This document shows positions 6,095-52,740 of a stretch of DNA of 64,000 nt, one piece after another. Numbering within the stretch: position 1 is the first letter of the stretch; each line of letters begins with the position of its first letter. The notes beneath the pieces were generated by a model, which searched no databases, had not been told where the DNA came from, and saw only the letters and a program-made list of their open reading frames with translations. Source of the stretch: Stutzerimonas frequens (lineage in GTDB: Bacteria; Pseudomonadota; Gammaproteobacteria; Pseudomonadales; Pseudomonadaceae); NCBI RefSeq assembly GCF_024448335.1, contig NZ_JAMOHM010000004.1, positions 62,001-126,000 on the forward strand, given 5' to 3'. The position numbers and the translations under genes are program-made.

Positions 6095-6159
6095 GCTTTA
6101 CCTCATCGGTCAAAGTGGGCGCAGATGTTACTCAACGACTGCGCCCCTGGCAAGCAGCT

Positions 6160-11265: not shown

Positions 11266-11348
11266 GCTGATACCTCATCTGTGCGGCCCTGCACCTCTCG
11301 GGTACACTAGCCGCCGTTTTTCAAGGGTTCTGACGCAAGGGTCGAAAT

Positions 11349-11660: not shown

Positions 11661-11662
11661 AA

Positions 11663-11690
11663 CCGCTGCGGCAGCAACCTGCCGCGGCAA
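11663..11690. terminator. Hairpin between convergent yhbY and DUF4149 gene
   Basis: An imperfect stem GCTGCGGCAG / CTGCCGCGGC with loop CAAC occupies the 31-bp gap between two convergent stop codons and could serve both directions. The U-run is weak. Confidence 0.5.
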
Positions 11691-11691
11691 T

Positions 11692-35788: not shown

Positions 35789-36167
35789 GGGGCCGATTAG
35801 GATTCGACGCCGGTAACGAAACTTGAGGGGCATGCCGAGTTGGTAACAGAACTCGTAAATAAACTGTTGCAAACCTATAGTTGCCAACGACGACAACTAC
35901 GAAGGGTACGCGCTAGCCGCCTAACCTTCATCTGGTAGCTTCGGCTCCAGCGGTCACTAGGGGATGCCTGTAAACCCGAAATGACCGTCAGATAGAACAG
36001 GATCGCCGCCAAGTTCGCTGTAGACGTAACGGCTAAATCTCATACAGCTCGCTCTAAGCACCCTGCCAATCGGGCGGCGCGGAGTTAACTCAGTAGATCT
36101 GGCTAAGCATGTAGAACCAATAGCGGAGAGCTGGCGGACGGGGGTTCAAATCCCCCCGGCTCCACCA
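35789..36167 (+). ncRNA. ssrA: Transfer-messenger RNA
   Basis: 379-nt tmRNA that rescues stalled ribosomes with SmpB. The tRNA-like 5' end GGGGCCGATTAGGATTCGACGC and 3' end GGGTTCAAATCCCCCCGGCTCCACCA are present (positions 35789-35810 and 36142-36167), with encoded CCA. The mRNA-like part at 35883-35924 reads, from resume codon GCC, ANDDNYEGYALAA then TAA. The P. aeruginosa tag is ANDDNYALAA, so this one carries three extra residues (EGY). The 3' end is the attachment site of the element that follows. Confidence 0.97.
36151..36167 (+). repeat. attL: left copy of 17-bp attachment core
   Basis: TCCCCCCGGCTCCACCA, the ssrA 3' end, is repeated exactly at 44305-44321 in the same orientation. The pair brackets an 8.1-kb segment that starts with an integrase gene. 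Confidence 0.88.
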
Positions 36168-36169
36168 TC

Positions 36170-36204
36170 ACAAGCGCAGAGCCCCGTACTCCGGGGCTTT
36201 GTGC
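36170..36204 (+). terminator. Terminator behind ssrA supplied by element 1
   Basis: The stem AGAGCCCCG-TACT-CCGGGGCTTT with outer CACAA/TTGTG pairing lies immediately inside the integrated element. Because integration cuts off the native downstream sequence, this hairpin restores ssrA 3' end formation. Confidence 0.75.
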
Positions 36205-36226
36205 TGTCTGGACCTGCCGTTTTAGC

Positions 36227-36241
36227 AGGTGTGACATCGAG
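36227..36241 (+). repeat. Candidate integrase arm site, left
   Basis: AGGTGTGACATCGAG recurs in direct orientation at 44220-44234, near the other end of the element. Position inside both ends fits arm-type integrase binding sites (inference). Confidence 0.5.
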
Positions 36242-36275
36242 CAGTCACATCGAAGCAGGGCATCAGCAGGCGCCC

Positions 36276-38111
36276 ATGATGAAACTCGCTCCTACCTACC
36301 TCTACCGAAATCGCCACGGAACCTTCTACTTCCGCATGGTAATTCCCGCCTCCCTGCGCCCTCGAATCAACGGCAAACGAGAGATTCGGCGCTCACTGAA
36401 AACTGATAGCGAAAGGCTAGCGCTCAAGCGCGCTCGACAGCATGCTGTGCACTTCGATTCAATCTTCGATAGAGCTTCGCGCATGACCGACCACAGCGAC
36501 TACGAACCCAGCCAAGAAGACATCGACCTTTTCGATGAACTGTGCCGCGACCAAAAGGGCATCGGCGTAGGCACGTGGTCTAGCCCAGCCAGCGCAGCGG
36601 CAGAATCAGAACCAGTGCTATCCAATGCAGAGATCGAAGAACGCCAGCGCCGCCATTGCATCGCTGAGCTACTGGAGGGGCGATTCGACCGCCCAATCCG
36701 GGACGAGCTGGAGCCCCTAGCGCGAAAGCTGTTGGCGCTTTCGCGCTCGTATCAGCCGACCGAGCTACCAAGGGTATTGCCTAAGCTAAGGGACGAGCTG
36801 GTTACAGTCAGCCTCACCGCTACAGGCACTCCAACCGCAACTGAATTACCGCTGGCAACAGAGCCCAGCCACGACCCTAAAATGGCCAGCTGGACGCTTT
36901 ATGACGTGTGGCAGCACCAGCTAGAGCGCGATCGAGCCGACAAGACTACTAGGGGTGGCCAAGCCAAGCACGGCGGAACGCTCGAAGAGAGCAAACGTCG
37001 TGCTCGTGTGATGACGGTACTTACACGACACAAGCCAGTGTGCGAACTGACCAAGCAGGACTGGCAATTCGCATACGACGCAGCGCGCACGATTAGAGCC
37101 GGCGCGACTGTAACAATCGATCCGCCATCGCCTCTGGAATCGCTCGTTACGGACGATCCGGGAGAAATGGCAGGACATGAGCGCGTAACCAGTCTGATCG
37201 GCGCGATGAAGCGAATCCAACGACATGCGAGGTTCTTGGACCTTACCGTCATCGGCCCTGAAGACTTACTGATCAAGGCCGTCCAAAAGCGAGAGAACTC
37301 ACGTAGCCGGAAAGGCAAGCCATTTTCCATGGAGGAGGTGGAGACGATCTTTTCAGGCTACATCTACCAAGGCACACCGCCGGCTAACAGGACGAAGGCT
37401 TATCCCTTTTGGTTCTGGATGCCCCTCGTCGCCTACTTTACTGGTGCCAGAACCAACGAAATTGCCCAGCTCGACACCGCTGACATTCGCGAGATAGACG
37501 GGCACCCATGCTTCGACTTTCGCCCAGACGATCCCAAAGCCTTTGAAGCCAAACGAGTCAAGACCGAAGAGGCTAGGCAGGTGCCTATCCACCCTCGCCT
37601 GATTGATCTTGGATTTCTTGACTACTTGGCAAGCCAGCGAACGGCTAAGCAGAAAAAGCTCTTCGGAGACGGCCTCGCCTACCTGCCACCACGGGACGAA
37701 ACCTCCGATCACAACAAAGAGGGGTGGGCCAAAAGCGCCAGCAAGTTTTTCAACGAAGCGCCAAACGGCTACTTAGTGGCCATCGGCGTCCACTACCCGA
37801 AGTCCGGTAAGAGCCTCTACTCTTTTAGACACACTCTAGAGACAAACCTGCGAAACGCCCGCAGAGATGGTAAGCCGGTGGACCAAACGGTCATTGATGC
37901 CATCACGGGCCATGCACCCAACACGATTGCCGGGAAGCACTACGACGGCGGCGCGACGATTGAGCACAAGCTTGCGGCGCTCAAACTGCTGCCAATTCCA
38001 GAAGCCATCCAGCGGTTAAAAAGCTATCAAGCGGATTTCGCTGATCGTTTCGGCGCCGTACTGCGTAAGAGTATTACCAGCCACCGTGCGCGGCACCCTC
38101 GCATGGTATGA
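36276..38111 (+). CDS. Tyrosine integrase of element 1
   Basis: 611-residue phage-type site-specific recombinase. The N-terminus (LAPTYLYRNRHGTFYFRMVIP) is the DUF6538-like module frequent in ssrA/tRNA-site integrases. A core-binding domain lies near 220-350, and the catalytic domain near 380-590 has GARTNEIAQL (Arg I), SFRHTLETN (Arg II in the HxxR box, with Ser in place of the first His) and GHAPNTIAGKHY (His/Trp position and the nucleophile Tyr). The ATG at 36276 is used; codon use and AT content differ visibly from the core genes. It faces away from ssrA. Confidence 0.92.
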   Translation: MMKLAPTYLYRNRHGTFYFRMVIPASLRPRINGKREIRRSLKTDSERLALKRARQHAVHFDSIFDRASRMTDHSDYEPSQEDIDLFDELCRDQKGIGVGTWSSPASAAAESEPVLSNAEIEERQRRHCIAELLEGRFDRPIRDELEPLARKLLALSRSYQPTELPRVLPKLRDELVTVSLTATGTPTATELPLATEPSHDPKMASWTLYDVWQHQLERDRADKTTRGGQAKHGGTLEESKRRARVMTVLTRHKPVCELTKQDWQFAYDAARTIRAGATVTIDPPSPLESLVTDDPGEMAGHERVTSLIGAMKRIQRHARFLDLTVIGPEDLLIKAVQKRENSRSRKGKPFSMEEVETIFSGYIYQGTPPANRTKAYPFWFWMPLVAYFTGARTNEIAQLDTADIREIDGHPCFDFRPDDPKAFEAKRVKTEEARQVPIHPRLIDLGFLDYLASQRTAKQKKLFGDGLAYLPPRDETSDHNKEGWAKSASKFFNEAPNGYLVAIGVHYPKSGKSLYSFRHTLETNLRNARRDGKPVDQTVIDAITGHAPNTIAGKHYDGGATIEHKLAALKLLPIPEAIQRLKSYQADFADRFGAVLRKSITSHRARHPRMV

Positions 38112-38144
38112 AGGCCATCAAAGAAACGAGGTTACTGAAGTCGC

Positions 38145-38948
38145 CTAGGAAGGCTCACTGCACATCCAATGCCCGCGAATCATTTCCCTTAGCTGATCGA
38201 GGCTGAGAGTTGTTCGGCGCTTTCGGTGGATGACCGCATGGCAATTGGCGCACAAAGTAATCAAGTCGGTTTCCGGGTTAACGAGCTTCGCGCCATCGAA
38301 TTCAGAAATCGGCTGCACATGGTGCACGTGAATGTAGCCTCGTGCGTAATCGCCGTACGCCTTCTCGAAGTCAAAGCCGCACGCTTTACAGGCAGTACCA
38401 TGAATGGCGATGGCCTGGCACCTGAGCTTGGGGTCTCGCTCATAGCGGACGCCGAAGTAGCTCGTTGTGCTGCCTTCGACACCAGATCGGAAAGCCAAAG
38501 CATCTTCGCTTTCCTGCACCTCCGCGATCTGTAGAGGCTTGAGCTTAGCTCGCATCAGAATGCTCTGGTAGGTGCCTTGATCGATCGATCGGACACCGTC
38601 ACGCCAGTAATTACTCACCTTGGATGGCGGAATGGGCTCTAGGTAGGTATCGCCATCCTTAGCGAGAACAGGCCACTCGAATGGTTGGAATTCCTCGATC
38701 AGGGCAAACAGATCACCCTTTGAGCTGTTTGGATCGGGATAAACCTTGCCTATGCGAGCGATCCCGAAGTAATGCGGCAGGTCGGTCAGCCGCCGATCTG
38801 CGTAGGCTTTATCCTTCATCCCGCCTTTATAGTAGATGACCTGTATTCCAGGTTTGAGAATGGCGCTGTACCGCTTCGGATAATGGTAAACGGCACCAGT
38901 TTCATCGTCCCAAATCGAAACGTCGTTCTCAACGATGACAGCGGGCAT
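38145..38948 (-). CDS. HNH endonuclease with N-terminal unknown domain
   Basis: 267 residues. The C-terminal part is an HNH nuclease: Cys pair CKAC (187-190), HVHHVQPIS (207-215), CANCHAVIH (233-241), a zinc-stabilised beta-beta-alpha metal site. The N-terminal about 160 residues hold no motif I can name with certainty; sequence such as YYKGGMKDKAYADRRL and YFGIARIGKV recalls PUA/EVE-like or restriction-associated sensor domains. The start at 38948 has GGGAG at 7 nt; an ATG two codons earlier is possible. Convergent with the integrase. Candidate type IV-like restriction or other anti-phage cargo (inference). Confidence 0.82.
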   Translation of the reverse strand: MPAVIVENDVSIWDDETGAVYHYPKRYSAILKPGIQVIYYKGGMKDKAYADRRLTDLPHYFGIARIGKVYPDPNSSKGDLFALIEEFQPFEWPVLAKDGDTYLEPIPPSKVSNYWRDGVRSIDQGTYQSILMRAKLKPLQIAEVQESEDALAFRSGVEGSTTSYFGVRYERDPKLRCQAIAIHGTACKACGFDFEKAYGDYARGYIHVHHVQPISEFDGAKLVNPETDLITLCANCHAVIHRKRRTTLSLDQLREMIRGHWMCSEPS

Positions 38949-39166
38949 GAGCATACTCCCTTGCGCTTCGCGGCGTTACGGTCTGGCAGCTATGCGTGCA
39001 AAACGGACCAAGCACTTCATAACTGCGGACCACAGGTGGATTCGAACAAACAATCGAGAATCAGATTGAAGAAAACCTCGGGCAGTCCAGCTAGCGGCTC
39101 AACAGCTCGGCGCGTAGCGGGAGCTGTCTTGCTGCCTAGAAACACCCATCCAGCTAACGGAGTCTG

Positions 39167-39502
39167 CTACTCCGCTTTAATCCGTTCCCATTGGTGTTCG
39201 TAATAGGACGCCTCCTCCTTGCAATCGGCGCAAATCAGCCCGTCGGCAAACCTTGTATCCAAGGCCTCTATTAGCTCTTTTCCCTCTAATTCGCGCGAAC
39301 AACCATTGTGATGCCCGCCTGGGTTGACAACCCCCTCGCAAGTCTGGCGCATGAACGGCTCAAGAACGTGCTGCTGAGCAGGCGACAGGCTGCTGAACCC
39401 CCTATCAACGCCCGCCTGCGCGATCCCTGCGCATTTTGGATCACTGTCGTGAAACGCATCGCAGTCCAGCAGCTTTTTCAACACTTCCTCTTCAACACCC
39501 AT
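39167..39502 (-). CDS. Hypothetical protein with CxxC pair
   Basis: 111 residues, acidic and hydrophilic, no signal peptide. One CADC pair lies near residue 95 and further Cys/His residues (QTCEGVVNPGGHHNGC) near 54-69, together a possible zinc site. GGGAGGGGTGT precedes the start; 22 further in-frame codons are rejected for that reason. No family recognised. Same strand as the HNH gene, 219 bp upstream of it, so possibly co-expressed. Confidence 0.6.
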   Translation of the reverse strand: MGVEEEVLKKLLDCDAFHDSDPKCAGIAQAGVDRGFSSLSPAQQHVLEPFMRQTCEGVVNPGGHHNGCSRELEGKELIEALDTRFADGLICADCKEEASYYEHQWERIKAE

Positions 39503-39751
39503 ACACCCCTCCCAAGTAAAGACACTCAATGGATTCGAAACGCCAGGCGAAGCCCTATGACGACCCAAAGCAATCTATTGCATTTCGCCAGCATTAACAA
39601 AACGGATGCTCAACAGAATTCTCAAACCTCTATACCCATCTGAGAGACGCCAAGCTCGCGTACCGGGACTATCAAAAAACCTGTAGATGCAGGGCAATTG
39701 ATCGAACTATCATTTGCCCATCAAATCTAGAGTTACTTGAGAAAACTCCCC

Positions 39752-40378
39752 ATGAAAGCCCGCCTGTACCTGAGAGCATCGACGAAGGACCAAGACAGCC
39801 ACCGCGCAGAGCAGATCTTGCGAGAGTTTGCGGCTGAACGAGGCATGACCATTGCCGGCATCTACGCCGAGAACATTAGCGGCACGAAGTTGGAGCGCCC
39901 GGAGCTGATTCGCCTGCTCGATGAAGCTGAGCCGGCTGATGTGCTGCTATGTGAAAGCGTGGACAGGCTGTCCCGCTTGTCTCAGGACGAATGGAAACAG
40001 CTTCGCAGCATGATCGAATGTAAGGGACTCAGGTTAGTAGTGGTAGACCTACCGACCACGCACCAGCTAGCCAACAGCGATGACATCGCTAGTCAGGTTC
40101 TAAGGGTTATCAACGATATGCTTCTTGACCTGATGGCAACCATGGCACGACTCGACCAACAGAAACGAGTCGAGCGGATCAAACAAGGCCTTGAGCGCCG
40201 CAAGGAGCGCGGCGAGATGATTAAAACCCGTGGCAAGTCGAAATCATGGGTTACAGCCCAAGAGATGCTGTTGAAGTTTCCGGACGCCTCTGCTGAGGAG
40301 ATCGCAAGGTTGGCAAAGTGCGGAGTGGCAACTGTTTATCGAGCCAAGGCCGAACTTCCGAAATCCTTACACATATAA
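39752..40378 (+). CDS. Serine recombinase (resolvase/invertase family)
   Basis: 208 residues. The resolvase N-terminal catalytic domain begins MKARLYLRASTKDQDSHRAE with the nucleophile Ser in LRAST (near 10) and the conserved ESVDRLSRLS (near 73-82). The C-terminal end has a helix-turn-helix (SAEEIARLAKCGVATVYRAK). The start is placed at the ATG beginning the beta strand; a TTG five codons upstream is possible. Could resolve multimers, invert DNA or promote plasmid-like maintenance of the element. Confidence 0.88.
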   Translation: MKARLYLRASTKDQDSHRAEQILREFAAERGMTIAGIYAENISGTKLERPELIRLLDEAEPADVLLCESVDRLSRLSQDEWKQLRSMIECKGLRLVVVDLPTTHQLANSDDIASQVLRVINDMLLDLMATMARLDQQKRVERIKQGLERRKERGEMIKTRGKSKSWVTAQEMLLKFPDASAEEIARLAKCGVATVYRAKAELPKSLHI

Positions 40379-40532
40379 GAAAGCCGAAGTCAAGCATAAC
40401 TCTAGACACAAGACGCTAAACGCAATTACAATATTGGCGCTGAATTAAACAGCGCCTTAAACCATGAACCATAAACACTTGGAGGACGCCCTATCGGGAA
40501 GAATTTTTCACATCGTTGCTAAGGGGTAACGA

Positions 40533-40952
40533 ATGCAATACCTAGAGACAACTGCTAAGCAGTTCATGCAATCCGACAACGGCAGCTATTCGCGCCTTGC
40601 CGATCTACTTAACAAACTCGCTCCCCGCTCTGACGGCTCCCGTTGGACAAAAAATTCCGCTTACCACTTCTGCCGAACCCATGGCATCAAATCAAGCCGA
40701 CGATGCCGCAATCAGCCAACTGCCGGCTGCACTCAACGCGCTAAAACTCGCCAAGCCATCATCAGCGCAACTCTCGACGCACTCACAGCCGATGGCAAAA
40801 CCATCTTCGATATAGCTCCGGTCGAGCTGAAAACAATCGTTAGGCTGTCAGGCGCGCCGATGTTCAACGTGCGCAACAACTGGCACGAGCTAACGAATGA
40901 ACTCAATGCGCTGGCAGGTCTGCCACCGTCCCTGCTTATCGTTGAAGAGTAA
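40533..40952 (+). CDS. Hypothetical protein, element 1
   Basis: 139 residues, basic in the middle (SSRRCRNQPTAGCTQRAKTR). No family recognised. Ends 5 bp before the next gene on the same strand, suggesting an operon 40533-42676 that ends in the replication initiator. Confidence 0.55.
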   Translation: MQYLETTAKQFMQSDNGSYSRLADLLNKLAPRSDGSRWTKNSAYHFCRTHGIKSSRRCRNQPTAGCTQRAKTRQAIISATLDALTADGKTIFDIAPVELKTIVRLSGAPMFNVRNNWHELTNELNALAGLPPSLLIVEE

Positions 40953-40957
40953 GCGCA

Positions 40958-41548
40958 ATGAGCTCGAAGACCACACCGGACATCGAAGCCCAAGCCGTCA
41001 TACTTCGCGAAGCGGGTTATTCCTGCCCAGCCATCGCTGACAAGCTCGACCTATCCCTATCTACCACTAAGCGCATTCTGAAGCGCCGCAGCGCTGTTGC
41101 TGGTGCTGCAACCGAAAGTCTTGTCGAGCAAGCACGTCAAGGCATGCTCAACACCGCCTTCGATCTGGACGCGGTACAACAGCACGCCGCCGCGCTGGTG
41201 CTGGACGATCTCGCATTGTCCCGCATGATCCGGGGGAAGGTAGTAGAAGCTATGGAAGCGCTCGACCCCAGCACCAGCACGCCTTACCAAATGATGCGAA
41301 CAGTGGTGGCAGCAGCCACAGCGCTTGATCTCACGCAGAAGGTGGCGCGCCGTGCCCTGCCGCTTGATCGCTTGGCAGAAGCCACGCATGTTGAAGAGCT
41401 GTCCGAGCTTCGCATTCGAATCATGACCGACGATGACGTCCGAGAGATTCGAGAGCAGCAGCGCCGCGAAGCAGCCGAGCGCATCACAGGCAACTCACTG
41501 CTGACCGAAGAAGAAGACAACGGGGTAGTGGAGCTGGTGCAGGACTGA
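40958..41548 (+). CDS. Helix-turn-helix hypothetical protein, element 1
   Basis: 196 residues. The N-terminal region has an HTH of the ILREAGYSCPAIADKLDLSLSTTKRIL type (near 15-43), as in resolvase or small-terminase-like DNA-binding domains; the rest is helical and ends acidic (TEEEDNGVVELVQD). Might be a regulator of the element or an accessory DNA-binding factor. Function unknown. Confidence 0.6.
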   Translation: MSSKTTPDIEAQAVILREAGYSCPAIADKLDLSLSTTKRILKRRSAVAGAATESLVEQARQGMLNTAFDLDAVQQHAAALVLDDLALSRMIRGKVVEAMEALDPSTSTPYQMMRTVVAAATALDLTQKVARRALPLDRLAEATHVEELSELRIRIMTDDDVREIREQQRREAAERITGNSLLTEEEDNGVVELVQD

Positions 41549-41707
41549 CATCTACAACGAACCGACACCGGGCCGAACATGACACCACGAGCCCGGTTGT
41601 CGAATCCTTAGAAAAACAAAGCCAACTAGACCCCATAGCGCTCAATGCGCAGACCTGAAAATTGAAAATCAGGCAGAGGGACGGAGGCGACAACGAGCAT
41701 TGGACAG

Positions 41708-42676
41708 ATGCAGGACTTCAACGATTCTGAAAACGTAACCGACGCCCGGCTAGAAGTAATTCGTGAGGGTATGAGGGAGGCTGTCAGGGAAGACATTCGA
41801 GACAGCACAATCGACCACCTATTTTTGCCAGTGAGCGCTTGTACGAGCGATGCGCCATCAGAGCTTCTGCAAAAACCCGTAAATTTCGGGACTCCAAAAA
41901 ACGCCTCACCGCTAGTAACCACGGTGCTTTCAAAGCAGTTCGCTATGGCTAAGACCAGTATACTAGGGAGGAATACAAGCAATACCCTTCACACCAACCA
42001 GAAGCCTCATACGCTCTTGGAAGGGGTACAGCCCAAGACGTTTGTATTCCGTTCATGGCGAGATACGGACGACAACCACAAGCTGATGCTTGCAGTGGCA
42101 CCGCTACTAGACAGGGCGGCTGAACTGACCTACGAGTGCAAAGCCTTCACCCTGATCCTGAACAGCAAGCTAAGCAAGCGGCTCGACCAGGGCGACCAAA
42201 CTGCACCGGAGCAAATCAGAGACCAGATGGTTCGCAAGGTTCGCGAGGCATTGGGAGGCGATGCTTGGTTTCTCTATTCACTCGAAAAAAGCCCAGCGGT
42301 TCTAACGAAGGATGGCAGCCGTAGGCGCTGGCACCTTCACGGGCTCATCATTGGACCTACTGGGTTTGCAGCTCAAGGCCAGACCAAGCTTCGTCGCGCA
42401 CTACGCCGCGTGAAGGGCGAAGCTGACAGCGACCTTATGTTCACCACTCCCGGCTCCGATATCGAGCGAGAAGGCTTCGCCAGTGCGCTTGGATGGGCCG
42501 CATACTGTGCGAAGAACAAGCTATCAGTGCTCGCAGACTCTAGGCTCAAAGAGTTTTACGATCTGCCCCCCGGTAAAGCGACTTACATTTCCAGCGAACT
42601 ACTACGGCTGACAAAGGCGCACTACCAGAGCACCGTCCTGATACATGCCAACCACCACGCCCGGAAAGGCACCTAG
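41708..42676 (+). CDS. HUH-type replication initiator (inovirus Gp2/YagK-like)
   Basis: 322 residues. The C-terminal half (about 115-300) resembles the inovirus Gp2/YagK-YfjJ replication proteins. It has the metal-binding HUH motif WHLHGLI (His209, His211) and, downstream, WAAYCAKNKL with Tyr266 and Lys269 as the candidate nicking Tyr and its supporting Lys. Such enzymes nick one strand at an origin and start rolling-circle replication or mobilisation. It ends before a noncoding stretch with repeats that may hold the origin. Likely the last gene of the 40533-42676 operon. Confidence 0.75.
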   Translation: MQDFNDSENVTDARLEVIREGMREAVREDIRDSTIDHLFLPVSACTSDAPSELLQKPVNFGTPKNASPLVTTVLSKQFAMAKTSILGRNTSNTLHTNQKPHTLLEGVQPKTFVFRSWRDTDDNHKLMLAVAPLLDRAAELTYECKAFTLILNSKLSKRLDQGDQTAPEQIRDQMVRKVREALGGDAWFLYSLEKSPAVLTKDGSRRRWHLHGLIIGPTGFAAQGQTKLRRALRRVKGEADSDLMFTTPGSDIEREGFASALGWAAYCAKNKLSVLADSRLKEFYDLPPGKATYISSELLRLTKAHYQSTVLIHANHHARKGT

Positions 42677-42710
42677 AACGCTCATAGCGATGCGATCTGA
42701 CAAAAGACCG
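42672..42710 (+). repeat. 39-bp direct repeat, copy 1
   Basis: Begins CCTAGAACGCTCATAGCGAT; matches copy 2 (42899-42937) at 37 of 39 positions. The first copy overlaps the end of the replication gene. Confidence 0.8.
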
Positions 42711-43177
42711 TACAGGCAGCGCCAAAGCTAGATCGAAGCGTATAGAGCCTCACAGAAGGCTTTGCAGCGAATCACGGCATTAGGGGTGCCACGGCACCAA
42801 CACAGCCAGCAGAATCGAGACGAGTCACGCCAAACTGCCGGACTGCCGGACTGCTCCTAGAACCGGCGAGCACCAGCACCAGCACAGCCAAGAAGCCGCC
42901 TAGAACGCGCATAGCGATGCGATCTCACAAAAGACCGGCAGACCAAGCGGACAACAAAAAACAGCGCTCTAAACGCCATCTTAGAGCTTACAGCAAAGCG
43001 GGCGAACCCAAAAAAACGAGAGCACAAAAAATCAGTGGTAGTTGAACTAACTAACCACTGACTGAAGTACGAGCTTGGACGGTTTGAATTATACACAGAA
43101 CTTACCGACACCGGCAGACTTCCCGATATCGCGAACCATCGCTACTGTATTCACGCCAACGAAACAGGAGCAAAACC
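42677..43177. other. Noncoding repeat-rich stretch, candidate origin
   Basis: No convincing gene. It holds most of the first and all of the second 39-bp direct repeat, short iterations of AACTGCCGGACTGCCGGACTG type (42832-42858), AGCACC repeats, and a small GGGGTGCC/GGCACC hairpin near 42785. Location directly behind the HUH initiator fits a double-strand origin or nick site (inference). Confidence 0.5.
42899..42937 (+). repeat. 39-bp direct repeat, copy 2
   Basis: Begins CCTAGAACGCGCATAGCGAT; two mismatches to copy 1. Confidence 0.8.
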
Positions 43178-43345
43178 ATGCAGCACGAAGTTATAAGCTA
43201 CTCAGCAGCGTGCGAACTGATTGAACAGTTAGACGCCATCGAAGTACATAGCGCCGGATGGGCGCAGACGTTTAGAGCGGAGAACAATGGGAAGCCGATA
43301 TACACTCAATTTCTCGGCGAGGGTGATAGCCTGCTTATTCGCTAG
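43178..43345 (+). CDS. 55-residue hypothetical protein
   Basis: An ATG preceded by ACAGGAGCAAAACC opens a frame of 55 residues beginning MQHEVISYSAACELIEQLDA and ending GDSLLIR. Soluble, acidic, balanced composition and a good ribosome site support a real gene; no family recognised. Confidence 0.55.
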   Translation: MQHEVISYSAACELIEQLDAIEVHSAGWAQTFRAENNGKPIYTQFLGEGDSLLIR

Positions 43346-43500
43346 AACAAGGCAAAAACCTACTGAAAAACGACGAACTAATCTCAAGCAAAGATACAGA
43401 TCATGGCAGCAAGCAGGCACAAATGACCATCAATTTAAAGATTAGCGAAACACCTGAAATTAACCACCCACATCACAGGCATACGAAGAGGCCTCCAAAC

Positions 43501-43854
43501 TCAATCTTGGCTGATGTCCTTGCGTGCACCAGTATCCGATATCAACGGCTGATTGCCAGACTCAGCCATTGGTGCCGGCTCCCTTTTTCTGAGTATGCTT
43601 ATGACCCACGCAAGAAGCACAGCGCCAAAACCCATCATTATGTATGGGTCAGGCACCCGCTTTAGAATCGCCCCTATTAACCCAAGCACAAGAAATCCGA
43701 GCGTAGGACCAGGCGCTCGAACGAGGCAGTAAAGCAGAAACAGGATGCCAGCGATTATCAAAAGCTGAACGGCTTTAGCCAAAACACCTATCGCTAGCAT
43801 GGCTAGAGCCACCTTCCACACGAATGCACCAGAGTTGCCGCTCTTCCTTGACAT
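43501..43854 (-). CDS. Small membrane protein, element 1
   Basis: 117 residues with about three hydrophobic helices (VALAMLAIGVLAKAVQLLII, GILFLLYCLVRA, LGFLVLGLIGAILK and IMMGFGAVLLAWVISILRK) and a soluble polar C-terminal tail. No family recognised. Alone on the minus strand at the right end of the element, the position where cargo genes of integrative elements are often found. Confidence 0.65.
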   Translation of the reverse strand: MSRKSGNSGAFVWKVALAMLAIGVLAKAVQLLIIAGILFLLYCLVRAPGPTLGFLVLGLIGAILKRVPDPYIMMGFGAVLLAWVISILRKREPAPMAESGNQPLISDTGARKDISQD

Positions 43855-44304
43855 GCAGGTAGCCTCTAGAGGTTATGCCGAAAGGTATAAAAATTGTCTG
43901 CTACTGGAATATAGCTCTCCGAATATAGCAGGGTTATGGCTACAGGCGTTCACCGAATGAACTCCTTGTGAACCGTATGAGTGCTTTCGCCCATCTATTA
44001 ATGATGCTGCCGAGAGTCGGTACCACTAACGAGCCCCTCCTCTCGAGCGCATAGCGCTGGCGCTCGATGTTGAGCCAGCCTCACTTCCGACCCTGATCGA
44101 CGGTGCCTGAATTTCGCTTAGCTCGCGCAGCGCCGCACTTTTCGGACGCCGGTTCAAATCCCTCTAGTCCAGACATGCCGCAACGTATATTCTGCGTGAA
44201 CCATCAACCACGCCCACCTAGGTGTGACATCGAGGCACTGGCGCTGCGGCTCAAACGTACGGGTTCTGTAGCTTGCAATGGGGAACGGGAAATGCGGTTG
44301 ACCA
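43855..44304. other. Right-end noncoding region of element 1
   Basis: No gene seen. It contains the right copy of the 15-bp candidate arm site (44220-44234) and, at 44142-44173, a degenerate T-arm-like sequence (GGTTCAAATCCCTCTAGTCCA) that resembles the ssrA 3' end, possibly a remnant of an earlier attachment site. Confidence 0.5.
44220..44234 (+). repeat. Candidate integrase arm site, right
   Basis: AGGTGTGACATCGAG, identical and in the same orientation as 36227-36241. Confidence 0.5.
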
Positions 44305-44321
44305 TCCCCCCGGCTCCACCA
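44305..44321 (+). repeat. attR of element 1 / attL of next module
   Basis: Exact second copy of the 17-bp ssrA end TCCCCCCGGCTCCACCA. A second integrase module starts 99 bp downstream in the same orientation, as in tandem insertions at one site. Confidence 0.85.
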
Positions 44322-44329
44322 ATTCAACA

Positions 44330-44358
44330 CTGAAACCCGTCTAGAACGCGGGTTTCAG
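44330..44358 (+). terminator. Hairpin directly behind the second ssrA-end copy
   Basis: The 10-bp perfect stem CTGAAACCCG / CGGGTTTCAG with a 9-nt loop. It occupies the same relative position as the terminator behind attL, so this module too seems to carry its own replacement ssrA terminator. No U-run. Confidence 0.55.
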
Positions 44359-44419
44359 CCCAGATTTGATGGCATTGGATTACTCACAGTCCGTCTGTGA
44401 ATCCAAAAGGTATGCCATC

Positions 44420-46861
44420 ATGTCCAAGCGCCAAAGCAAAACGGGTGTCCCCCACCTGGTCTATCAAGCCAACACTGGCTTCCAGTACTACCTCACATTC
44501 CCTAAGCATTTCGCGGCCAACCCGAAACTGCCTGCGCAAATCCGGTGGTCGCTCAGCCACGACGAAGCCCTGGCCCGCGATCTCGCTAAGTACCTGAATG
44601 CTTCTTTCGAGCAGTTCCTTGCCAAGGCAACCGAGCACTATGTCGAGCTCTTTTCTGACCGCCTGCTGGTTGACCTCCAAAGGTTTCACTTAGCGGTAGC
44701 GGAAGCACTCAAATTCGCCGACCGGGTTTGGAAAGTCCGTCCGTCGCCCATGAAGCTCGCGAACCAAGACCTTTCGGTCGCCCACGCTCGCATGATGAAA
44801 GAGAGTGCCGAGCGTGTAGTGCTCTATAGCCACGAGCCAGGGGGCGAAATTTTCTTCGCACTGACACCAACGCCCGCACTGGTAAAAGCGCTTGGGGTCG
44901 GGTTCGTACGCTTTGACTGGCCGCTCGGAACCAACAACCAGAACGTGGCGAGCGACGCTGCCCGGTACATTTACGCCGCCCTTGATGTACTCGAGACCGT
45001 CCCACCCTCCCCAGGGCGCTATTCGAAAGAATCTCCTGCATTTGCAGCGATGACGCTTTATGAATACCTGTGCCATGCCCGCCCAGACCAGGGTCGGAAT
45101 CTCATGCACATCCCCCCAGCACTACCGCAATCTCGGCAAGCTTTGCATTTTCATCTTCAGCAAGCCAACGCGATGCATCTGAAGCTCCGCATCATTGATC
45201 GAGCGCTCTTGGTGCAGGAGGGATCGGGGCTTTATGTGATGCTTATCGAACTCGATCCGCTGTGCATGAAAGCGCATCTGAGAGAAAAGAAAAGCTTTCG
45301 GGTTGAGCTGCTCACTAGCTCCATCATCATTGCGGTCCTCATGCTGACGTATACGCTGCAGAAGGTTGATAAGGTGCTGTTGCGTTACTTTCAGGAAGAC
45401 GATCACCAAGATCCTTACGCCCAAGCCATGCAGGAAATCGGTGACCTGGTTCGGCGGATGTTGGGTTCTGCTGCAACCGCCGAGCCTATGCAGACGATTC
45501 CGGAGCTGAACTCGCCGACAGATGCTGTGGCACCGCCACAGGATCCAGGCACGCTCGCGTTGCTGAATGCGCTCGGGAGCGTTCTGCCCGACGCGCAGAA
45601 AGCCAAGCTTGAAACCCTCTTTACGCAACCCTCCGTCAACGATCGCATTGTCTCGCCGGCGCGTGGTTCAAACGCAGGGTTGAGCCTCGCAGCTTTGGTA
45701 AAGGAATACGAAGAACGGCAAATTCGTGAAGGCGCCTGGGCTAACCCGCGGACTCGCATTACCGCAAAGGCCCGCCTGGAAGGCCTGTGCGAGCTGCTTG
45801 GCGGGCACCGGCAAGTCGAGACGCTGACTCGCGCTGAATTCAACACGCTACGCGATCATCTGCGTAGCTATCCGAAGAACCGGCATCGCCTCCGTGCCAC
45901 GCGTAACCAGCCGCTAAGTAAGATCATTAGCGACGGTAAGTTCGAGCCAATCAACCCTCGCACTGCGAAAAAGTTTTTTGAGCTGGCAAGGGCCCTTGTC
46001 ACCTACGCTCATGATCAGGGTTACATCACCGAAAATATCGCGGCCGGATTGGCATTCAGCACCAAAGGAGCCGAGGCGCCGAGGAAGCGCACGTATAGCC
46101 CAAGCCAGATCGAGAAACTTCTTCACGGTCCGGCCTACACACTGACCACGCCGCCGCGCTGGCGCTTGGATGACTACAAGTTTTGGCTGCCGCTGCTTGG
46201 CCTTTTTACAGGCGCAAGGCTAAGTGAGCTGTGCCAGCTACGGCTCGAAGACATTCGGCAAGAACTCGGCGTCTGGCTCATCAGCATCAATCGAAGCGGG
46301 TCGAAACAGCTGAAGACGTCCGATTCGGAAAGGTTGGTGCCGATTCACCGGCAGCTTATCGAGTCGGGCTTCCTGGAGTTTCATCAAGCACGCCTGGAAG
46401 CTGTCGAGCGAGACGGCAAGGCTCCGCTTTTCGACAATATTCGGGTATACGGCGACCTTTCTCCCGGGCATGTTGCGAGCCGTTGGTTTCTCGGCTCAAG
46501 CCAGATTAGCCGGGGTTACCTTGGGCTTTGCGGCCTGGGAGATGACGGCCTGACGTACCACGGTCTGCGCCACACCTTTATCAATCAATTTCGCAGACAG
46601 AACCTTGACCTGGCGAAAGCCAAAGCGCTTGTAGGCCACTCGGATAAAAGTACCACCGGTGGGTACGGCGACTGCTATCCGTCTGACGTGCTCAAAGACG
46701 AGCTCGACAAGCTCGATTTCGGGCTAGGGCTGGGACACATCCATTACCGGCACTATCAAGAGTTACGAGAACGCCAGGGCGTTTTCAATGTCGGTCGCCC
46801 GGTTGGCACCCCCTTCCCCAGCGTGCGGGTTGCTAAGCGACACTGGAAAACGTACGCATAA
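44420..46861 (+). CDS. Large tyrosine recombinase (813 aa)
   Basis: Tyrosine integrase, much longer than usual. Residues 1 to about 400 form an extended N-terminal region beginning SKRQSKTGVPHLVYQANTG, similar in style to the 36276 integrase but larger. The catalytic domain (about 560-790) keeps all key residues: TGARLSELCQL (Arg I), YHGLRHTFINQF (HxxR), GHSDKSTTGGYGD (His and nucleophile Tyr). AAGG lies 9 nt before the chosen ATG; an ATG 18 codons earlier lacks support. First gene behind the second ssrA-end copy. Confidence 0.9.
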   Translation: MSKRQSKTGVPHLVYQANTGFQYYLTFPKHFAANPKLPAQIRWSLSHDEALARDLAKYLNASFEQFLAKATEHYVELFSDRLLVDLQRFHLAVAEALKFADRVWKVRPSPMKLANQDLSVAHARMMKESAERVVLYSHEPGGEIFFALTPTPALVKALGVGFVRFDWPLGTNNQNVASDAARYIYAALDVLETVPPSPGRYSKESPAFAAMTLYEYLCHARPDQGRNLMHIPPALPQSRQALHFHLQQANAMHLKLRIIDRALLVQEGSGLYVMLIELDPLCMKAHLREKKSFRVELLTSSIIIAVLMLTYTLQKVDKVLLRYFQEDDHQDPYAQAMQEIGDLVRRMLGSAATAEPMQTIPELNSPTDAVAPPQDPGTLALLNALGSVLPDAQKAKLETLFTQPSVNDRIVSPARGSNAGLSLAALVKEYEERQIREGAWANPRTRITAKARLEGLCELLGGHRQVETLTRAEFNTLRDHLRSYPKNRHRLRATRNQPLSKIISDGKFEPINPRTAKKFFELARALVTYAHDQGYITENIAAGLAFSTKGAEAPRKRTYSPSQIEKLLHGPAYTLTTPPRWRLDDYKFWLPLLGLFTGARLSELCQLRLEDIRQELGVWLISINRSGSKQLKTSDSERLVPIHRQLIESGFLEFHQARLEAVERDGKAPLFDNIRVYGDLSPGHVASRWFLGSSQISRGYLGLCGLGDDGLTYHGLRHTFINQFRRQNLDLAKAKALVGHSDKSTTGGYGDCYPSDVLKDELDKLDFGLGLGHIHYRHYQELRERQGVFNVGRPVGTPFPSVRVAKRHWKTYA

Positions 46862-46872
46862 TATTCAGCTAA

Positions 46873-46901
46873 TAAAAGGTAGGGGCTCGCTCTTACCTTT
46901 T
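46873..46901 (+). terminator. Terminator after the 813-aa recombinase
   Basis: The stem AAAAGGTA / TACCTTTT with a 12-nt loop just after the stop codon. Confidence 0.65.
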
Positions 46902-46916
46902 GCTCATCTTGCGATT

Positions 46917-46933
46917 ATTGACAAGTTGTCAAT
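46917..46933. promoter_or_regulatory. Perfect palindrome between the two recombinases
   Basis: ATTGACAAGTTGTCAAT is a perfect 17-nt palindrome in the short intergenic region before the second recombinase gene. Probably an operator or recombinase-binding site. It shares the TTGACAA core with the outer repeats at 48819 and 49014. Confidence 0.5.
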
Positions 46934-47023
46934 AAAAACTATCGCATGGTAAATCCTAATAGATTATCTTGACTGTTTATCCATCCAGTAATAATCTCAA
47001 GCCTCACCCACTGTGAGGTATAT

Positions 47024-48283
47024 ATGAATGTAACTGCCCCCCTCTCCATTCCTTTTTACAAAGGCCTGAGTCTTATCGTCGAACCCGGCCATGAAGAACA
47101 CTTGCGAATCGCGTTGGCAAACATTTCAGCGATTACGGATGCGATAAACCGCTTTCAGTCTTCTCCTTTGCTTACCGAGTTCATGGACATAACGCTGTCC
47201 CGCTTTCTGCGAGAAAACAATTACGCAGGGAAATCCGAGCACATGCTTCGAGCGCGGATGGAGAAACTAAAAATCGCTCTGACGCAAGATAATCCTACCC
47301 GCCGAGTTGCTGAGCTTGATCGGGCCGACGTACAGCGTCTGAAGGATCAGCTACCGTCGTTACTCAAGCAGAACGCTGCGTCGGGTAGCAAAGGCGCAAA
47401 CCTCACGACCTACTATCAGTTGTTCAATCGAATGCTAGACGAAGCACTTGAGAGCAAGCTGATTACCGAGGCGATCAAAGTCGCGACCTGCAATACAAAA
47501 CACGCCGAAATCACCAAGCCATTTCTGGATAGCAATCTGAATCAGATGTTCTCAGGCTGGCCCTACAGAAAGTATCTCGCAGGCGACCTGCCGAAAATCA
47601 ACCAGGACGCCAAGCCCTATCGGTTTTGGTTGCTCCCGCTTGGGCTCTATACCGGCGCGCGGCTTAACGAGCTCTGCCAGCTACGTGTGCATGATGTGAT
47701 CCAGGATGTCCACGGCGTAGACCTTATCGATATCAACGATAATGGCTACAACAAGTCGTTGAAGACGGGGCCGTCGGCTCGGCAGATTCCAATCTGCTCG
47801 AAGCTAGTGGAGATGGGCTTTCTAAATTTCGTAGAAGAACGGCGCCAGGCCGATGGCAATGACGCTCTGCTTTTCAACGAGCTGAGCTTCGATCCAAAGC
47901 ACCTATACTCCCGCGACCCAAGTCGGTTTTTCTGCGGGCCGTGCACGGGTACAGGATACATCGGTCAGCACTGTCCGCCGGCGGTTAATGGCGGGCTCAA
48001 TTTTAAAAGTCTCCGTCGCTCGTTTGCCGTTCGGCTGGAACGGTCAGGCATATCTCCATCCACGATCGCCTATCTGCTCGGCCATGAGGGTGGTGCACCA
48101 GAAGTCACAGCAGACCATTACCTGGAGCAGCCACTGAGTCTGAGATTACTGGAGCAGATGGAACGGGGACTGACATACAACGCACAGACCGAGCAGATCC
48201 GCTGGGAGCATTTTAAAAAGCTGCTCGCAAACCAAGCCGGACGCGGAAAGCGAGGAAGGAGAACTAAGCAAAAGCCTTGCTAG
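47024..48283 (+). CDS. Second tyrosine recombinase (419 aa)
   Basis: 419-residue recombinase with a core-binding domain (about 60-180) and catalytic domain (about 200-390): TGARLNELCQL (Arg I), FKSLRRSFAVRL (Arg II, first His replaced by Lys), LGHEGGAPEVTADHYLEQ (nucleophile Tyr). It is encoded 162 bp behind the 813-aa enzyme on the same strand; a pair of unlike recombinases may act as a heteromeric unit or belong to two tandem insertions. Confidence 0.9.
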   Translation: MNVTAPLSIPFYKGLSLIVEPGHEEHLRIALANISAITDAINRFQSSPLLTEFMDITLSRFLRENNYAGKSEHMLRARMEKLKIALTQDNPTRRVAELDRADVQRLKDQLPSLLKQNAASGSKGANLTTYYQLFNRMLDEALESKLITEAIKVATCNTKHAEITKPFLDSNLNQMFSGWPYRKYLAGDLPKINQDAKPYRFWLLPLGLYTGARLNELCQLRVHDVIQDVHGVDLIDINDNGYNKSLKTGPSARQIPICSKLVEMGFLNFVEERRQADGNDALLFNELSFDPKHLYSRDPSRFFCGPCTGTGYIGQHCPPAVNGGLNFKSLRRSFAVRLERSGISPSTIAYLLGHEGGAPEVTADHYLEQPLSLRLLEQMERGLTYNAQTEQIRWEHFKKLLANQAGRGKRGRRTKQKPC

Positions 48284-48337
48284 CGCGTAGCGTTCAAAAC
48301 AATCATCGCCTGGAGATGATTATGAGACAGGATGAAT

Positions 48338-48370
48338 AAAAGGCCGCAGCCAATCTGCGGCCTTTTTCGT
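48338..48370 (+). terminator. Terminator after the recombinase pair
   Basis: The stem AAAGGCCGCAG-CCAAT-CTGCGGCCTTT followed by TTCG lies 55 bp past the recombinase stop. Confidence 0.85.
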
Positions 48371-48818
48371 TCTGAACACAACAGGAAAGAAACCGAATTT
48401 TCACGCAACTCCGGGCATCGCTTGCGGCGACGGTTGGCACGCCCTATCGCTGAGCACAGTCCACCATCGAAGAACTTGCATCCGCTGCGACGAGAATTCC
48501 GTGACAGTCGGCTGCTGCCACACAAATTTCAGTTGAAGCGTGGGCGCTTTGGCATCAGACCGGACACCGCTTCATAACGCCACTGTGACAGACACACGGC
48601 ACGGTCACCCGGCGCATCGACACTCACTAACTGCCGCAAGCCCTACGAGTGACACGGCGAGACTGCAGCACTCGAGTCATGTGACATGGCGGTCGTAAGA
48701 CAAGTGTGCCGCAGTGATCGGGCTTATGATTGAGGCCGGGGCGGCAGCGCCCGCGAATGGCGCAGCTCACGTCTGTGCACAATCGCCATTTCGGCCAGGC
48801 AACGCCTGGCGGCTATGA

Positions 48819-49024
48819 TTTGACAACAAAATTGCGGGGGCATACTTGAAGCAGCGAAGCGTTCCTTCAAGTATGCCCCCGCGCCCCATACTTGAAACCT
48901 TCAAGTATGGGGCAGTTGAGCATTTTGGGCGTTTGCAGGTAAGCGAAACGAATGTGGAGCGAGACCGAGCAATAAGACCAAAATGATCAACTGCCTTCGC
49001 GAAGCGGCTGCCATTGTTGTCAAA
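48819..49024. repeat. Nested multi-hairpin element
   Basis: Ends: 11-bp perfect inverted repeat TTTGACAACAA (48819-48829) and TTGTTGTCAAA (49014-49024). Inside are a 17-bp perfect stem (48834-48850 with 48866-48882), a 13-bp perfect stem with a 3-nt loop (48884-48896 with 48900-48912), and an 18-nt stem with one mismatch (48911-48928 with 48978-48995). The first two stems share the core CATACTTGAA / TTCAAGTATG. This could be a non-autonomous mobile unit or a structured RNA or single-strand DNA substrate; no known class recognised. Confidence 0.6.
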
Positions 49025-49378
49025 AAAGGCAGCTTTCTTCATTTGCCGCAGGTAAATGGCTAGCTCCAATTTCGATGCTATGCATGGCTACCTCTGCTAA
49101 AGCAGAAGAAGCCTGCTCACGTCCGCTTCCTCTACGGGATGCGCGACGTTTCTATGCAACGGCCGCCGCTTGGTCACCTCCCATTTTGCTAACCCACCAC
49201 TTCATATGTCAGGAAGTACGCACCTCTCTGGCTGACAAACACTCCGCAGCGCCATCCCTGTACCAGCCTTCTCGATGACTGAATTACTCACGAAATCGGT
49301 CGGTCCTTAGTTTTCTCCCTCCGTGCCCAAGCGGTAGACTGAGACACACAAAGCAGTTTCGTTCTCCGAAGGTTACCC

Positions 49379-49744
49379 ATGTCCAAACTCGCCGAATTCA
49401 AAGCTCTAGAAGCCCAGCTCGCAGCCCAGCTCAAGCAGCTTGATGCTCTTAAGAATGACGACAAACTCAAGCGCGAAATCGAGTTCGAGGAAAAACTCCG
49501 CAATTTGATGGGGCAATATGACGTAGGCCTGCGCGAAATTATTTCAATATTGGATCCGCAGCCCAGCCGCACCAGCATCAGCGCCACCCCGACGTCTCAA
49601 GCGCCTCGTCGGCAGCGCCAAGTTAAGGTTTACAAAAACCCAGAAACTGGAGAGGTGGTAGAGACGAAGGGTGGCAATCATAAGATTTTGAAAGCTTGGA
49701 AAGAAAAGCACGGCGCCGAAAAGGTAGAGGGTTGGCTTCAGTAA
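49379..49744 (+). CDS. MvaT/MvaU-family H-NS-like silencer
   Basis: 121-residue nucleoid-associated protein of the pseudomonad MvaT family, functional counterpart of H-NS that silences AT-rich foreign DNA. An N-terminal coiled-coil oligomerisation domain (about 1-55) is followed by a linker and the DNA-binding domain with VKVYKNPETGEVVETKGGN (near 82-100) and a GAEKVEGWLQ end. The gene lies in the island, so it is probably an acquired paralogue rather than the core mvaT. A good terminator follows. Confidence 0.9.
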   Translation: MSKLAEFKALEAQLAAQLKQLDALKNDDKLKREIEFEEKLRNLMGQYDVGLREIISILDPQPSRTSISATPTSQAPRRQRQVKVYKNPETGEVVETKGGNHKILKAWKEKHGAEKVEGWLQ

Positions 49745-49758
49745 GCTATCCGACCAAC

Positions 49759-49792
49759 ACAAGAGCCAGGCACTGCCTGGCTTTTTCTTTAC
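49759..49792 (+). terminator. Terminator after mvaT-like gene
   Basis: The stem AGCCAGGCA / TGCCTGGCT followed by TTTTCTTT. Confidence 0.85.
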
Positions 49793-49869
49793 GCTTTCAG
49801 CGGTCAACGGATGCAAGCGATCGCACTACAACCAGTACCTGGAATTCATCGGTCCTCGCATGCACTCGC

Positions 49870-51150
49870 CTAGTTGCACCGCACCACCCACAACTGATCC
49901 AGCCTGGTCGTGAAACTTTGGCTCATCATCTCCCGTCGCATGCCCCAGTCCGGCGCGGTGGTTACGCGGCCGGGCCGGAGGGTATTGCGGCCCCACTTGG
50001 CGTTGATTGCATCGAGCACGCCCATAACGCGCTCCGACGCGGCGGGCTGGGTTTGGGCGAATAGATCGTCGGTGTACTCGCCGCGCTGGCAGAGGTCCAT
50101 CAGCAGGACCTCTGCCTTGCTGAACGAAAAGCCATCGCGATAGATGTGTTCCAACCCAGCGATCGCCGCCCGGATGATGTAGCGGGTGTCGTTGGTGGGA
50201 TACGGCAGCTCACACACGACGCCTTTCGCGAACTTGGGCTCGTCGGGATTAAACATGCCGGTACGGATGCTGATTCGGACGCGCTTGCACATGGACTGCT
50301 GTGCCCTCAGCTTCTCGCTGGCCCGAGCGGCATATGCCGCCACTGCGTCCTTGATTGGCTCAAGCTCGCGCAGGCGCTTGCCGAACATCCGCGAGCAGCA
50401 GATCTCCTGTTTGGGTGACGCGACCTCCTCCAGATCGAGGCACGGCGTCCCGCGCAGTTCGCGTGCGGTTTTCTCGATGACCACGCTGAATTTTTTGCGC
50501 AGGGTCCAGGCATCCGCGCTAGCTAGATCCCAAGCAGTACGTATGCCCAACCTGTTCAGGTGCTCGGTCATCCGGCGACCGACACCCCATACATCGCCGA
50601 CGTCAGTCACGCGCAGCACCTTGTCGCGCCGCACCGGGTCGAGAAGGTCCACTACCCCACCCGTCTGCTTCTGCCAGCGCTTCGCTGAATGGTTCGCCAA
50701 CTTGGCGAGCGTCTTGGTCCCCCCAATGCCCACCCCGACCGGGATACCTGTGCTGCGCAGTACCTCAGCGCGGATCCGCCTGCCGAGCACTTCGACGTCT
50801 GGCACACCGGTAAGGTCGGCAAACGACTCGTCGATTGAGTACACCTCAACCGCAGGCACCAGGCTCTCGATGACCGTCATGACGCGCTCGCTCATGTCGC
50901 CGTACAGCGCGTAATTGCTGGAAAACACCACAACGCCCCAACGCTCCAGGTCGCGCCGGATCTGAAAATACGGCACGCCCATTTTGATACCGAGCTGCTT
51001 TGCCTCGGCCGAGCGCGCGATCACGCAGCCGTCATTGTTCGAAAGCACGACGATAGGCGTACGGCGCAAGTCTGGTCGAAAGACACGCTCGCAGCTGGCG
51101 TAGAACGAGTTGCAATCAATGAGGGCGATGGCCCGCTCAGTACTTGCCAT
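49870..51150 (-). CDS. umuC: DNA polymerase V catalytic subunit UmuC
   Basis: Y-family error-prone translesion polymerase. 426 residues: [17 protein letters not shown] (first metal-site Asp), [23 protein letters not shown] (second acidic pair, near 104), helix-hairpin-helix [15 protein letters not shown] near 190, then little finger and C-terminal domains. It overlaps the umuD end by 14 nt, so both are translated from one LexA-controlled mRNA. Confidence 0.97.
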
Positions 51151-52364: not shown

Positions 52365-52740
52365 AGGCATTTCGCTTCAATGACCGTTGGTGACAACCTA
52401 AATCAAGTGCGAGCTTTGCTTTCAGGCCCGCCACTGTATGGGCTCGCGCGACGGTGAGTCGTCAGTTTAGAAAAGTGAGCCAGGGAAATTCGCTAAAGCT
52501 CAAACGACGAGCTTGAACACACCTCTTAGGGGCAGATAGCACCGCTTCCGCTTACGGCCAGAAGCGGCCTATCGTTACCAGCTGAAATCGACCCTAAGCT
52601 GCCGCGTGTGTTCTGGCACCACACATTACGGAATTCCCCCACACTCACAGAAACCGTCGTCTATTGGGGCAATGTGGAACCAAGCAGCTGTAGCTTGCCT
52701 GGTGGCATAATCGCAGTTGGTTCATAACAGGTGTGCATTA
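52365..52740. other. Gap with no gene seen
   Basis: 376 bp between the SRAP and LysR genes. It contains a short CCGCTTC/GAAGCGG-type imperfect inverted repeat near 52547-52570 and probably the LysR gene promoter. Nothing else recognised. Confidence 0.5.

Follow-up and report, generated by a model that had tools for sequence, protein, structure and literature searches.

A conserved multi-hairpin element in ssrA islands of Stutzerimonas, a candidate origin of transfer for a MobK-like tyrosine recombinase

The stretch of Stutzerimonas frequens DNA analyzed here (64,000 nucleotides; hereafter, the window) contains ssrA and the left end of an island, in which two tyrosine recombinase genes, intA and intB, are followed by a 206-bp structured element (Table 1). 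Because the same 18- to 20-base repeat of the ssrA end recurs at G000:C4:212398-212415, the island of the window measures ∼106 kb. In Stutzerimonas, the element belongs to ssrA islands of ∼61 to 106 kb (∼82 kb in G023, ∼72 kb in G033, and ∼61 kb in G036) and is located after intA and intB. Five islands were compared, with the genome of the window as the reference. Three parts are common to them, namely, the left end, which carries intA, intB, and the element; a block containing a third recombinase gene, intC; and the right end. The remaining sequence is mostly variable cargo.

Between ssrA and the island of the window, an insert of ∼8.1 kb (36168-44321) is bounded by the same ssrA repeat and holds a DUF6538 integrase (36201-38111), an HNH protein, and a resolvase. 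Among the 20-kb loci compared, 14 have the two flanks of this insert directly joined. One of its products (322 aa; 41708-42676) has no Pfam match and displays, by eye, an HxH-like WHLHGL motif, perhaps that of a replication or nicking enzyme. Past the element, the cargo includes an MvaT-like gene at 49379, and the next genes resemble umuC, umuD, and the gene for an SRAP protein by eye. In several genomes, this cargo ends at a common 22-base motif (52544-52565), and the sequence beyond differs between most of them. Cargo adjoining the element at other loci resembles defence genes by eye (L116, 1454-3802; L115, 14035-17136; L071, 15359-18062), the types being paired AAA proteins, a type I restriction subunit, HNH proteins, and AIPR-like proteins. 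DUF6957 proteins (PF22275) are encoded near the element in two unlike settings (L202, 604-999; L070, 10875-11303).

Table 1. Coordinates of the features in the window
Feature	Position	Strand	Remarks
ssrA	35789-36167		
attL, repeat of ssrA 3′ end	44304-44321	+	attR outside the window, G000:C4:212398-212415
intA, 831-aa tyrosine recombinase	44366-46861	+	PF00589, E 1.1e-11
intB, 419-aa tyrosine recombinase	47024-48283	+	PF00589, E 3.7e-11
Terminator-like hairpin and T run	48342-48367	+	Between intB and the element; seen in the sequence, absent from the pattern-scan list
Left flanking hairpin, then GGCTA	48794-48815	+	Within the conserved block
Core structured element, candidate oriT	48819-49024	+	Terminal stem P1 around H1 to H4
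P1 left arm, TTTGACAACAA	48819-48829	+	Pairs with 49014-49024; P1 pairs invariant in A4 (11 rows)
Hairpin H1, holds CATACTTGAA	48834-48882	+	23-nt arms, 91% complementary; two pairs with compensatory changes
Hairpin H2, holds CATACTTGAA	48883-48913	+	14 nt, 100%, 3-nt loop; 3′ arm ends in G run
Stem H3	48911-48995	+	Arms 48911-48928/48978-48995, 18 nt, 94%; inner part with AACGAATGTG and AGCGA motifs
H4 motif, TTCGCGAAGCG	48996-49006	+	TCGCG.AGCG kept in 11/11 rows of A3
P1 right arm, TTGTTGTCAAA	49014-49024	+	Pairs with left arm
Two small right flanking hairpins, GGCT after each	49040-49089	+	Conserved block ends here

The element is one closed multi-hairpin unit, in which the 11-bp stem P1 encloses H1, H2, H3, and the short H4 motif. 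An initial reading made from the sequence alone (the sequence-only reading) had described four stems packed into about 200 bp at a density far above chance, including terminal 11-bp inverted repeats, a 13-bp stem with a 3-nt loop, an 18-nt stem with one mismatch, and a core sequence reused in two stems. All four stems were recovered. The terminal repeats form P1 (48819-48829/49014-49024), the 13-bp stem is H2 and extends to 14 fully paired nt, the 18-nt stem is H3 (94% paired), and the core is CATACTTGAA, present in both H1 and H2. The density likewise withstood comparison with randomized sequence. The fold energy as RNA was −107.4 against a shuffle mean of −57.7 (z, −11.4; 0/200 shuffles as good), and folding as DNA gave a z of −12.2. 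The element contains 14 perfect 11-mer inverted pairs, whereas any such pair arose in 4 of 2,000 mononucleotide shuffles of the 206-bp stretch; by the same measure, tiles over the element score highest among the 206-bp tiles of the window (step of 50). Since the minus strand folds nearly equally (z, −10.9), the strand is not chosen by fold energy alone. The conserved block is broader than the 206 bp (∼48776-49089). It includes three small hairpins (48794-48810, 49040-49058, and 49075-49085), and in the window GGCTA comes after each of them. The 3′ arm of H2 ranks with the best conserved columns when relatives are compared.

Within the genus, the element was matched in 24 of 56 genomes, of which 23 contain a clear match and one (G050) a 35-base fragment. 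In 16 of these 23, the best copy matches at full score along the entire 206 bases, and the element is single copy in all but two of the 23 (G047 and G029, with two copies each). The neighbouring intB may differ by ∼9% in protein beside a full-score element (e.g., IntB at 91% and the element at 100% in L144), and relatives with near-identical intB mostly bear the name Stutzerimonas. An IntB alignment scan yielded 26 loci, five of which (L142, L149, L150, L156, and L161) are uninformative because the contig ends too early. At all 21 loci with enough contig, the element lies downstream of intB, at IntB identities down to 47%. Seventeen of these elements were found by BLASTN; the other four (L157 to L160) were seen in the sequence and confirmed by R1, a model built from element copies beside intB or its remnants (E values of 7e-14, 1e-19, 1e-7, and 3e-8, respectively). 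These four loci show identities of 42 to 46% for IntA and 47 to 53% for IntB, and their P1 stem consists of different yet complementary arms, TTTGATGTCAAA/TTTGACATCAAA. An order-wide model search under stricter filters matched 2 of 390 genomes (G000 and G148), and IntB was found in 8 of 369 genomes of the class, including the window's own, with the seven others being weak. Neither the DNA of 48700-49150 nor IntB had a match in plasmids or phages. The element is real and deeply conserved within these Pseudomonadaceae, and no published description of it was found among the titles and abstract openings listed from the literature collection searched.

The terminal inverted repeats of 11 bp and the near-identical copies in many species would suit a nonautonomous, MITE-like transposon, an option raised by the sequence-only reading. 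The copies examined, however, adjoin intB, a piece of intB, or intC, with the single exception of L070, whose 20 kb hold no intA or intB. Moreover, one copy per genome is the rule (21 of the 23), flank conservation extends past the terminal arms, and no target duplication was seen at the element. Based on copy number and context, a transposon was rejected and has next to no chance of being correct.

Some copies have parted from the usual layout. At L070 and L071 (both in G047) and at L075 (in G029), the element persists away from ssrA although intA has been lost together with all or much of intB; L071 and L075 adjoin intB fragments. Identity of the element over the 314-base block is 99% at L070, 95.5% at L071, and 91% at L075. 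In G028 (L077), two inserts of ∼1.65 kb are present (4979-6631 and 10287-11942), one splitting the element and the other sitting in intA; the bases shared at the joint number 7 and 5, respectively.

Base pairing is maintained through sequence change. In 11 close copies, paired cells amounted to 97.2%, and four pairs were changed on both sides. The covariation score was 0.088, compared to 0.066 for shuffles (0/500 as high) and 0.009 to 0.033 for slid structures. Of the five measures in the covariation test, two were not clearly above shuffles, namely, the count of pairs changed on both sides (67/500 shuffles reached the same number) and further pair types (500/500 at least as high). The sequence-only reading was to be given up for a single copy with no covariation and no transcript; because covariation exists, it stands in this respect. 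On the plus strand, G-T pairs outnumber A-C pairs by 60 to 5 cells in 13 copies, an excess that is partly due to the use of the window sequence for deriving the structure. Without the pairs that are already G-T in the window, the ratio is 31 to 5 cells by a hand count that includes some doubtfully aligned columns. As G-T pairs exceed A-C pairs on this strand, the bias suggests that the plus strand of the element acts as a single strand, whether RNA or DNA. Unpaired motifs of the element are also conserved.

The closest partner of the element is IntC, a small tyrosine recombinase, with the element placed ∼20 to 141 nt before intC in eight loci. The gap to the intC start is 26 nt in L159, 29 nt in L160, 141 nt in both L117 and L118, and 20 nt in L202. 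In L222, L247, and L248, the element lies ∼20 to 24 nt before the IntC match; R1 detected it there, in loci fetched by protein, with E values of 1e-22 to 1e-26. These are the 3 loci with an element just before intC among the 19 on which the R1 linkage check was run. The model found the element in none of 11 further IntC loci with 1.5-kb flanks (L203 to L211, L220, and L221) and none just before intC in L249, L250 (pIGRK), L251, L030, and L119; in L249, pIGRK, and pPZG500, no element was found. L117 and L118 come from another genus of the family, and intA and intB had no match at an E value of 1e-8 in the 19.9 kb of either locus; L202 was found by R1. IntC is also encoded in L157 to L160 and in the Stutzerimonas islands. 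In L157 to L160, the three integrase genes are adjacent, with intC upstream of the element in L157 and L158.

Across the genus, IntC is present in 21 of the 23 genomes with a clear element versus 4 of the 33 without one (Fisher P = 1.9e-9, a value inflated by kinship). One of these four, G032, carries a diverged element before intC (L222), and two genomes (G019 and G043) contain the element with no IntC match. IntC was not matched in phages. Where the element and IntC share a contig (11 genus genomes), intC is inverted and 18 to 76 kb off in 10; in G036, it is on the same strand as the element, 1.9 kb away, behind an IS3-like gene. In all five Stutzerimonas islands compared, intC lies within the island of the element; in G000, its position is G000:C4:187017-187910 on the minus strand.

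Because the element ends ∼20 to 29 nt before intC in six loci (L159, L160, L202, L222, L247, and L248), it may sit in the intC leader and adjust intC expression. The structured RNA considered in the sequence-only reading was kept as an option, given pairs preserved through changes and the G-T excess on the plus strand. We nonetheless regard it as unlikely that the element is chiefly a plus-strand RNA, either a leader controlling intC or a mobilization small RNA resembling the sgm-sRNA of SGI1. The conserved unpaired motifs and the proximity to intC are consistent with such an RNA, and SGI1 requires a small RNA encoded between mpsA and oriT, but a folded DNA strand undergoing transfer would give an equal strand bias. 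A terminator-like hairpin parts the element from intB, and a simple sigma-70 scan of 48200-49500 returned no promoter-like site on the plus strand. Rfam analysis of 44000-50000 gave no family at the gathering cutoff, the sole listed match inside the element being a sub-cutoff hit to mir-2944 (E value of 1.2). A leader role cannot hold in the 10 genomes in which intC is far and inverted.

IntC belongs by family to the tyrosine recombinases. R127, K147, R211, H234, and Y243 are invariant in 9/9 rows of A6 (catalytic assignment by eye), and the position three before R211 is Y, except for K in L159 and L160. Approximately 100 residues precede the catalytic part, and a scan of four IntCs at an E value of 0.1 found no Pfam domain there. 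Homology links IntC to MobK of pIGRK (hhalign probability of 98.2; E value of 4.9e-14). In a blastp comparison of an 11-protein set, six IntCs matched MobK with E values of 1.6e-12 to 1.5e-9, whereas MobK matched the other three integrases of the window at 0.005 or worse; within this set, IntC is closer to MobK than to those three integrases. A tblastn search of all plasmids with IntC matched MobK at an E value of 4e-6. IntC homologues occur on the tiny plasmids pPDDCC3357-6 (42%) and pPS1M3 (34%) and, more distantly, on pIGRK and its relatives. IntC-type genes are found on plasmids of 3.1 to 3.2 kb whose replication proteins are of two different kinds, a distribution that a mobilization module would be expected to show. 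MobK is reported to be a tyrosine-recombinase-type relaxase by experiment (PMC8152469). The minimal oriT of pIGRK, described in the same paper, spans 186 bp immediately ahead of mobK and contains AGCGA motifs; inverted repeats and a G-rich run are essential to it.

The element of the window contains AGCGA three times on the plus strand and not on the minus strand, compared to 0.30 expected. Plus/minus counts are 3/0 in pPS1M3, 4/0 in pIGRK, and 2/0 in the Aeromonas locus L246, there downstream of intC (0.2 to 0.3 expected in each). The other eight sequences hold zero to two; the L117 element has no AGCGA, and L159 and L202 have one copy per strand. AGCGA is enriched on the plus strand in several sequences, not all, and the longest G run is 4 to 6 in 12/12. 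By eye, intC of pPDDCC3357-6 and intC of pPS1M3 are preceded by a hairpin, CCATACTT...AAGTATGG, with GGGTGT after it; R1 gave a nonsignificant E value of 0.57 on the former plasmid and nothing on the latter. The pIGRK oriT had no sequence-level match to the element by R1 (L250). Because no direct match was found, membership of the element among MobK-type oriTs rests on its partner enzyme and layout.

A folded single strand served by a tyrosine recombinase is also the substrate in integron attC and CTX attP recombination. The element could by analogy be a site at which IntC inserts or inverts cargo, as IntC falls in the tyrosine recombinase family, four of the five islands compared have intC and the element in opposite orientations, the G036 comparison sets one breakpoint soon past the element, and the cargo changes shortly after it. 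We judge this quite improbable. No second copy of the element and no cassette array was found in the five islands examined, and homology beyond 49089 stops at varied points rather than at a single crossover point. Among the enzymes compared, IntC is nearest to a proven relaxase. The folded single-strand DNA recombination site envisaged in the sequence-only reading survives in part, as a folded single-strand site served by a recombinase-type enzyme, but is best read as the oriT of a relaxase. A cassette or integron interpretation, prompted by the sharp cargo end near 52565 and the inverted intC, was demoted to a rival because the boundary motif is present a single time in the window, 10 of 241 loci have it likewise a single time each, and no cassette array was found.

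Strand-specific folding would also befit a single-strand replication origin, at which transferred or excised single strands become double stranded, and a possible diverged element was made out by eye on a tiny plasmid that encodes a Rep_trans protein. Such a function is very improbable: the element is linked to intC rather than to any Rep gene; Rep proteins differ among the tiny plasmids; and pIGRK has a separate ssi site, reported downstream of mobK (PMC8152469).

The element is most probably the oriT of a mobilization module in which IntC serves as a MobK-type relaxase, with the element working in the form of a folded strand. In this scheme, IntC would recognize and bind the repeated hairpin motifs, cut one strand at the element, and remain covalently joined to it. 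The folded plus strand, in its closed multi-hairpin form, would presumably next enter a type IV secretion channel that a helper conjugative element provides, and IntA and IntB would excise the island and integrate it at ssrA. In a search for the PF02534 family alone, a coupling protein was found in three of nine genomes, always >1 Mb from the element, with none in the window's genome and none near the islands in any of the nine; a helper would therefore be needed for transfer. Counting against an oriT module is the distant, inverted intC in 10 of 11 genus genomes, unlike a compact module. Counting against the MobK-type label are the ∼100 extra residues of IntC, as MobK, TcpM, and MpsA are described as having no core-binding domain (PMC8152469). 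On balance, the best reading from sequence comparison is to file the element as a putative large multi-hairpin oriT for a MobK-like relaxase.

The closest described system is the pIGRK module of MobK and oriT, which likewise pairs a tyrosine-recombinase-like enzyme homologous to IntC with a noncoding oriT directly upstream (PMC8152469). The two resemble each other in inverted repeats and perhaps in a G-rich run and, for several of the sequences, AGCGA motifs; the pIGRK module is carried on a tiny plasmid, as are some IntC homologues. The pIGRK module differs in that the plasmid is AT rich (33.4% GC), in an oriT unmatched by R1, in having no island and no intA or intB, and in a MobK without the N-terminal ∼100 residues of IntC; a closed multi-hairpin unit is absent from its description (PMC8152469). 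SGI1, likened here by description, is a helper-mobilized chromosomal island with the tyrosine-recombinase-like relaxase MpsA, a GC-rich oriT of 125 bp with three inverted repeats, and an essential sgm-sRNA beside the oriT; unlike the present islands, it is inserted at trmE, and a protein of its own, MpsB, supplies the core-binding part (PMC6414798, PMC9299015).

As described, GInts resemble the Stutzerimonas islands in that they carry several tyrosine recombinase genes at one end, vary in cargo, insert at specific sites, and have Pseudomonas hosts, and the three neighbouring integrase genes of L157 to L160 recall the gin operon (PMC5385486). GInts, compared by description, possess ginABCD, including a small fourth protein (HLH), and imperfect repeats of 10 to 17 bp (PMC5385486), whereas in Stutzerimonas intC is usually 18 to 76 kb from intA and intB and the repeat is a perfect 18- to 20-bp ssrA end. 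SEs (strand-biased circularizing elements) also have two tyrosine recombinases, one of them large, but are described with the order intA-tfp-intB-srap (PMC10214605); here, intA and intB are direct neighbours. With their different layout, the Stutzerimonas islands probably belong to neither group; the relatives with three adjacent integrase genes may be GInts.

A more general principle can be put forward tentatively, although we think it rather unlikely: the element would be a nucleic acid part of the relaxosome, with its plus strand, as RNA or folded single-stranded DNA, forming a conserved scaffold that tyrosine-recombinase-type relaxases need for the transfer complex. The SGI1 sgm-sRNA and the pIGRK oriT would be other instances.

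Only three tyrosine-recombinase-like relaxases are named in a 2021 paper (PMC8152469), and GInts and SEs have been called putatively nonmobilizable (PMC10214605). A recognizable and structurally conserved candidate oriT, together with its enzyme, makes the mobilization of large tyrosine-recombinase islands directly testable. The element yields a covariance model for finding further modules of this kind. Its natural variants would be useful for learning how transfer begins with an enzyme whose recombinase chemistry would leave the 3′ end blocked.
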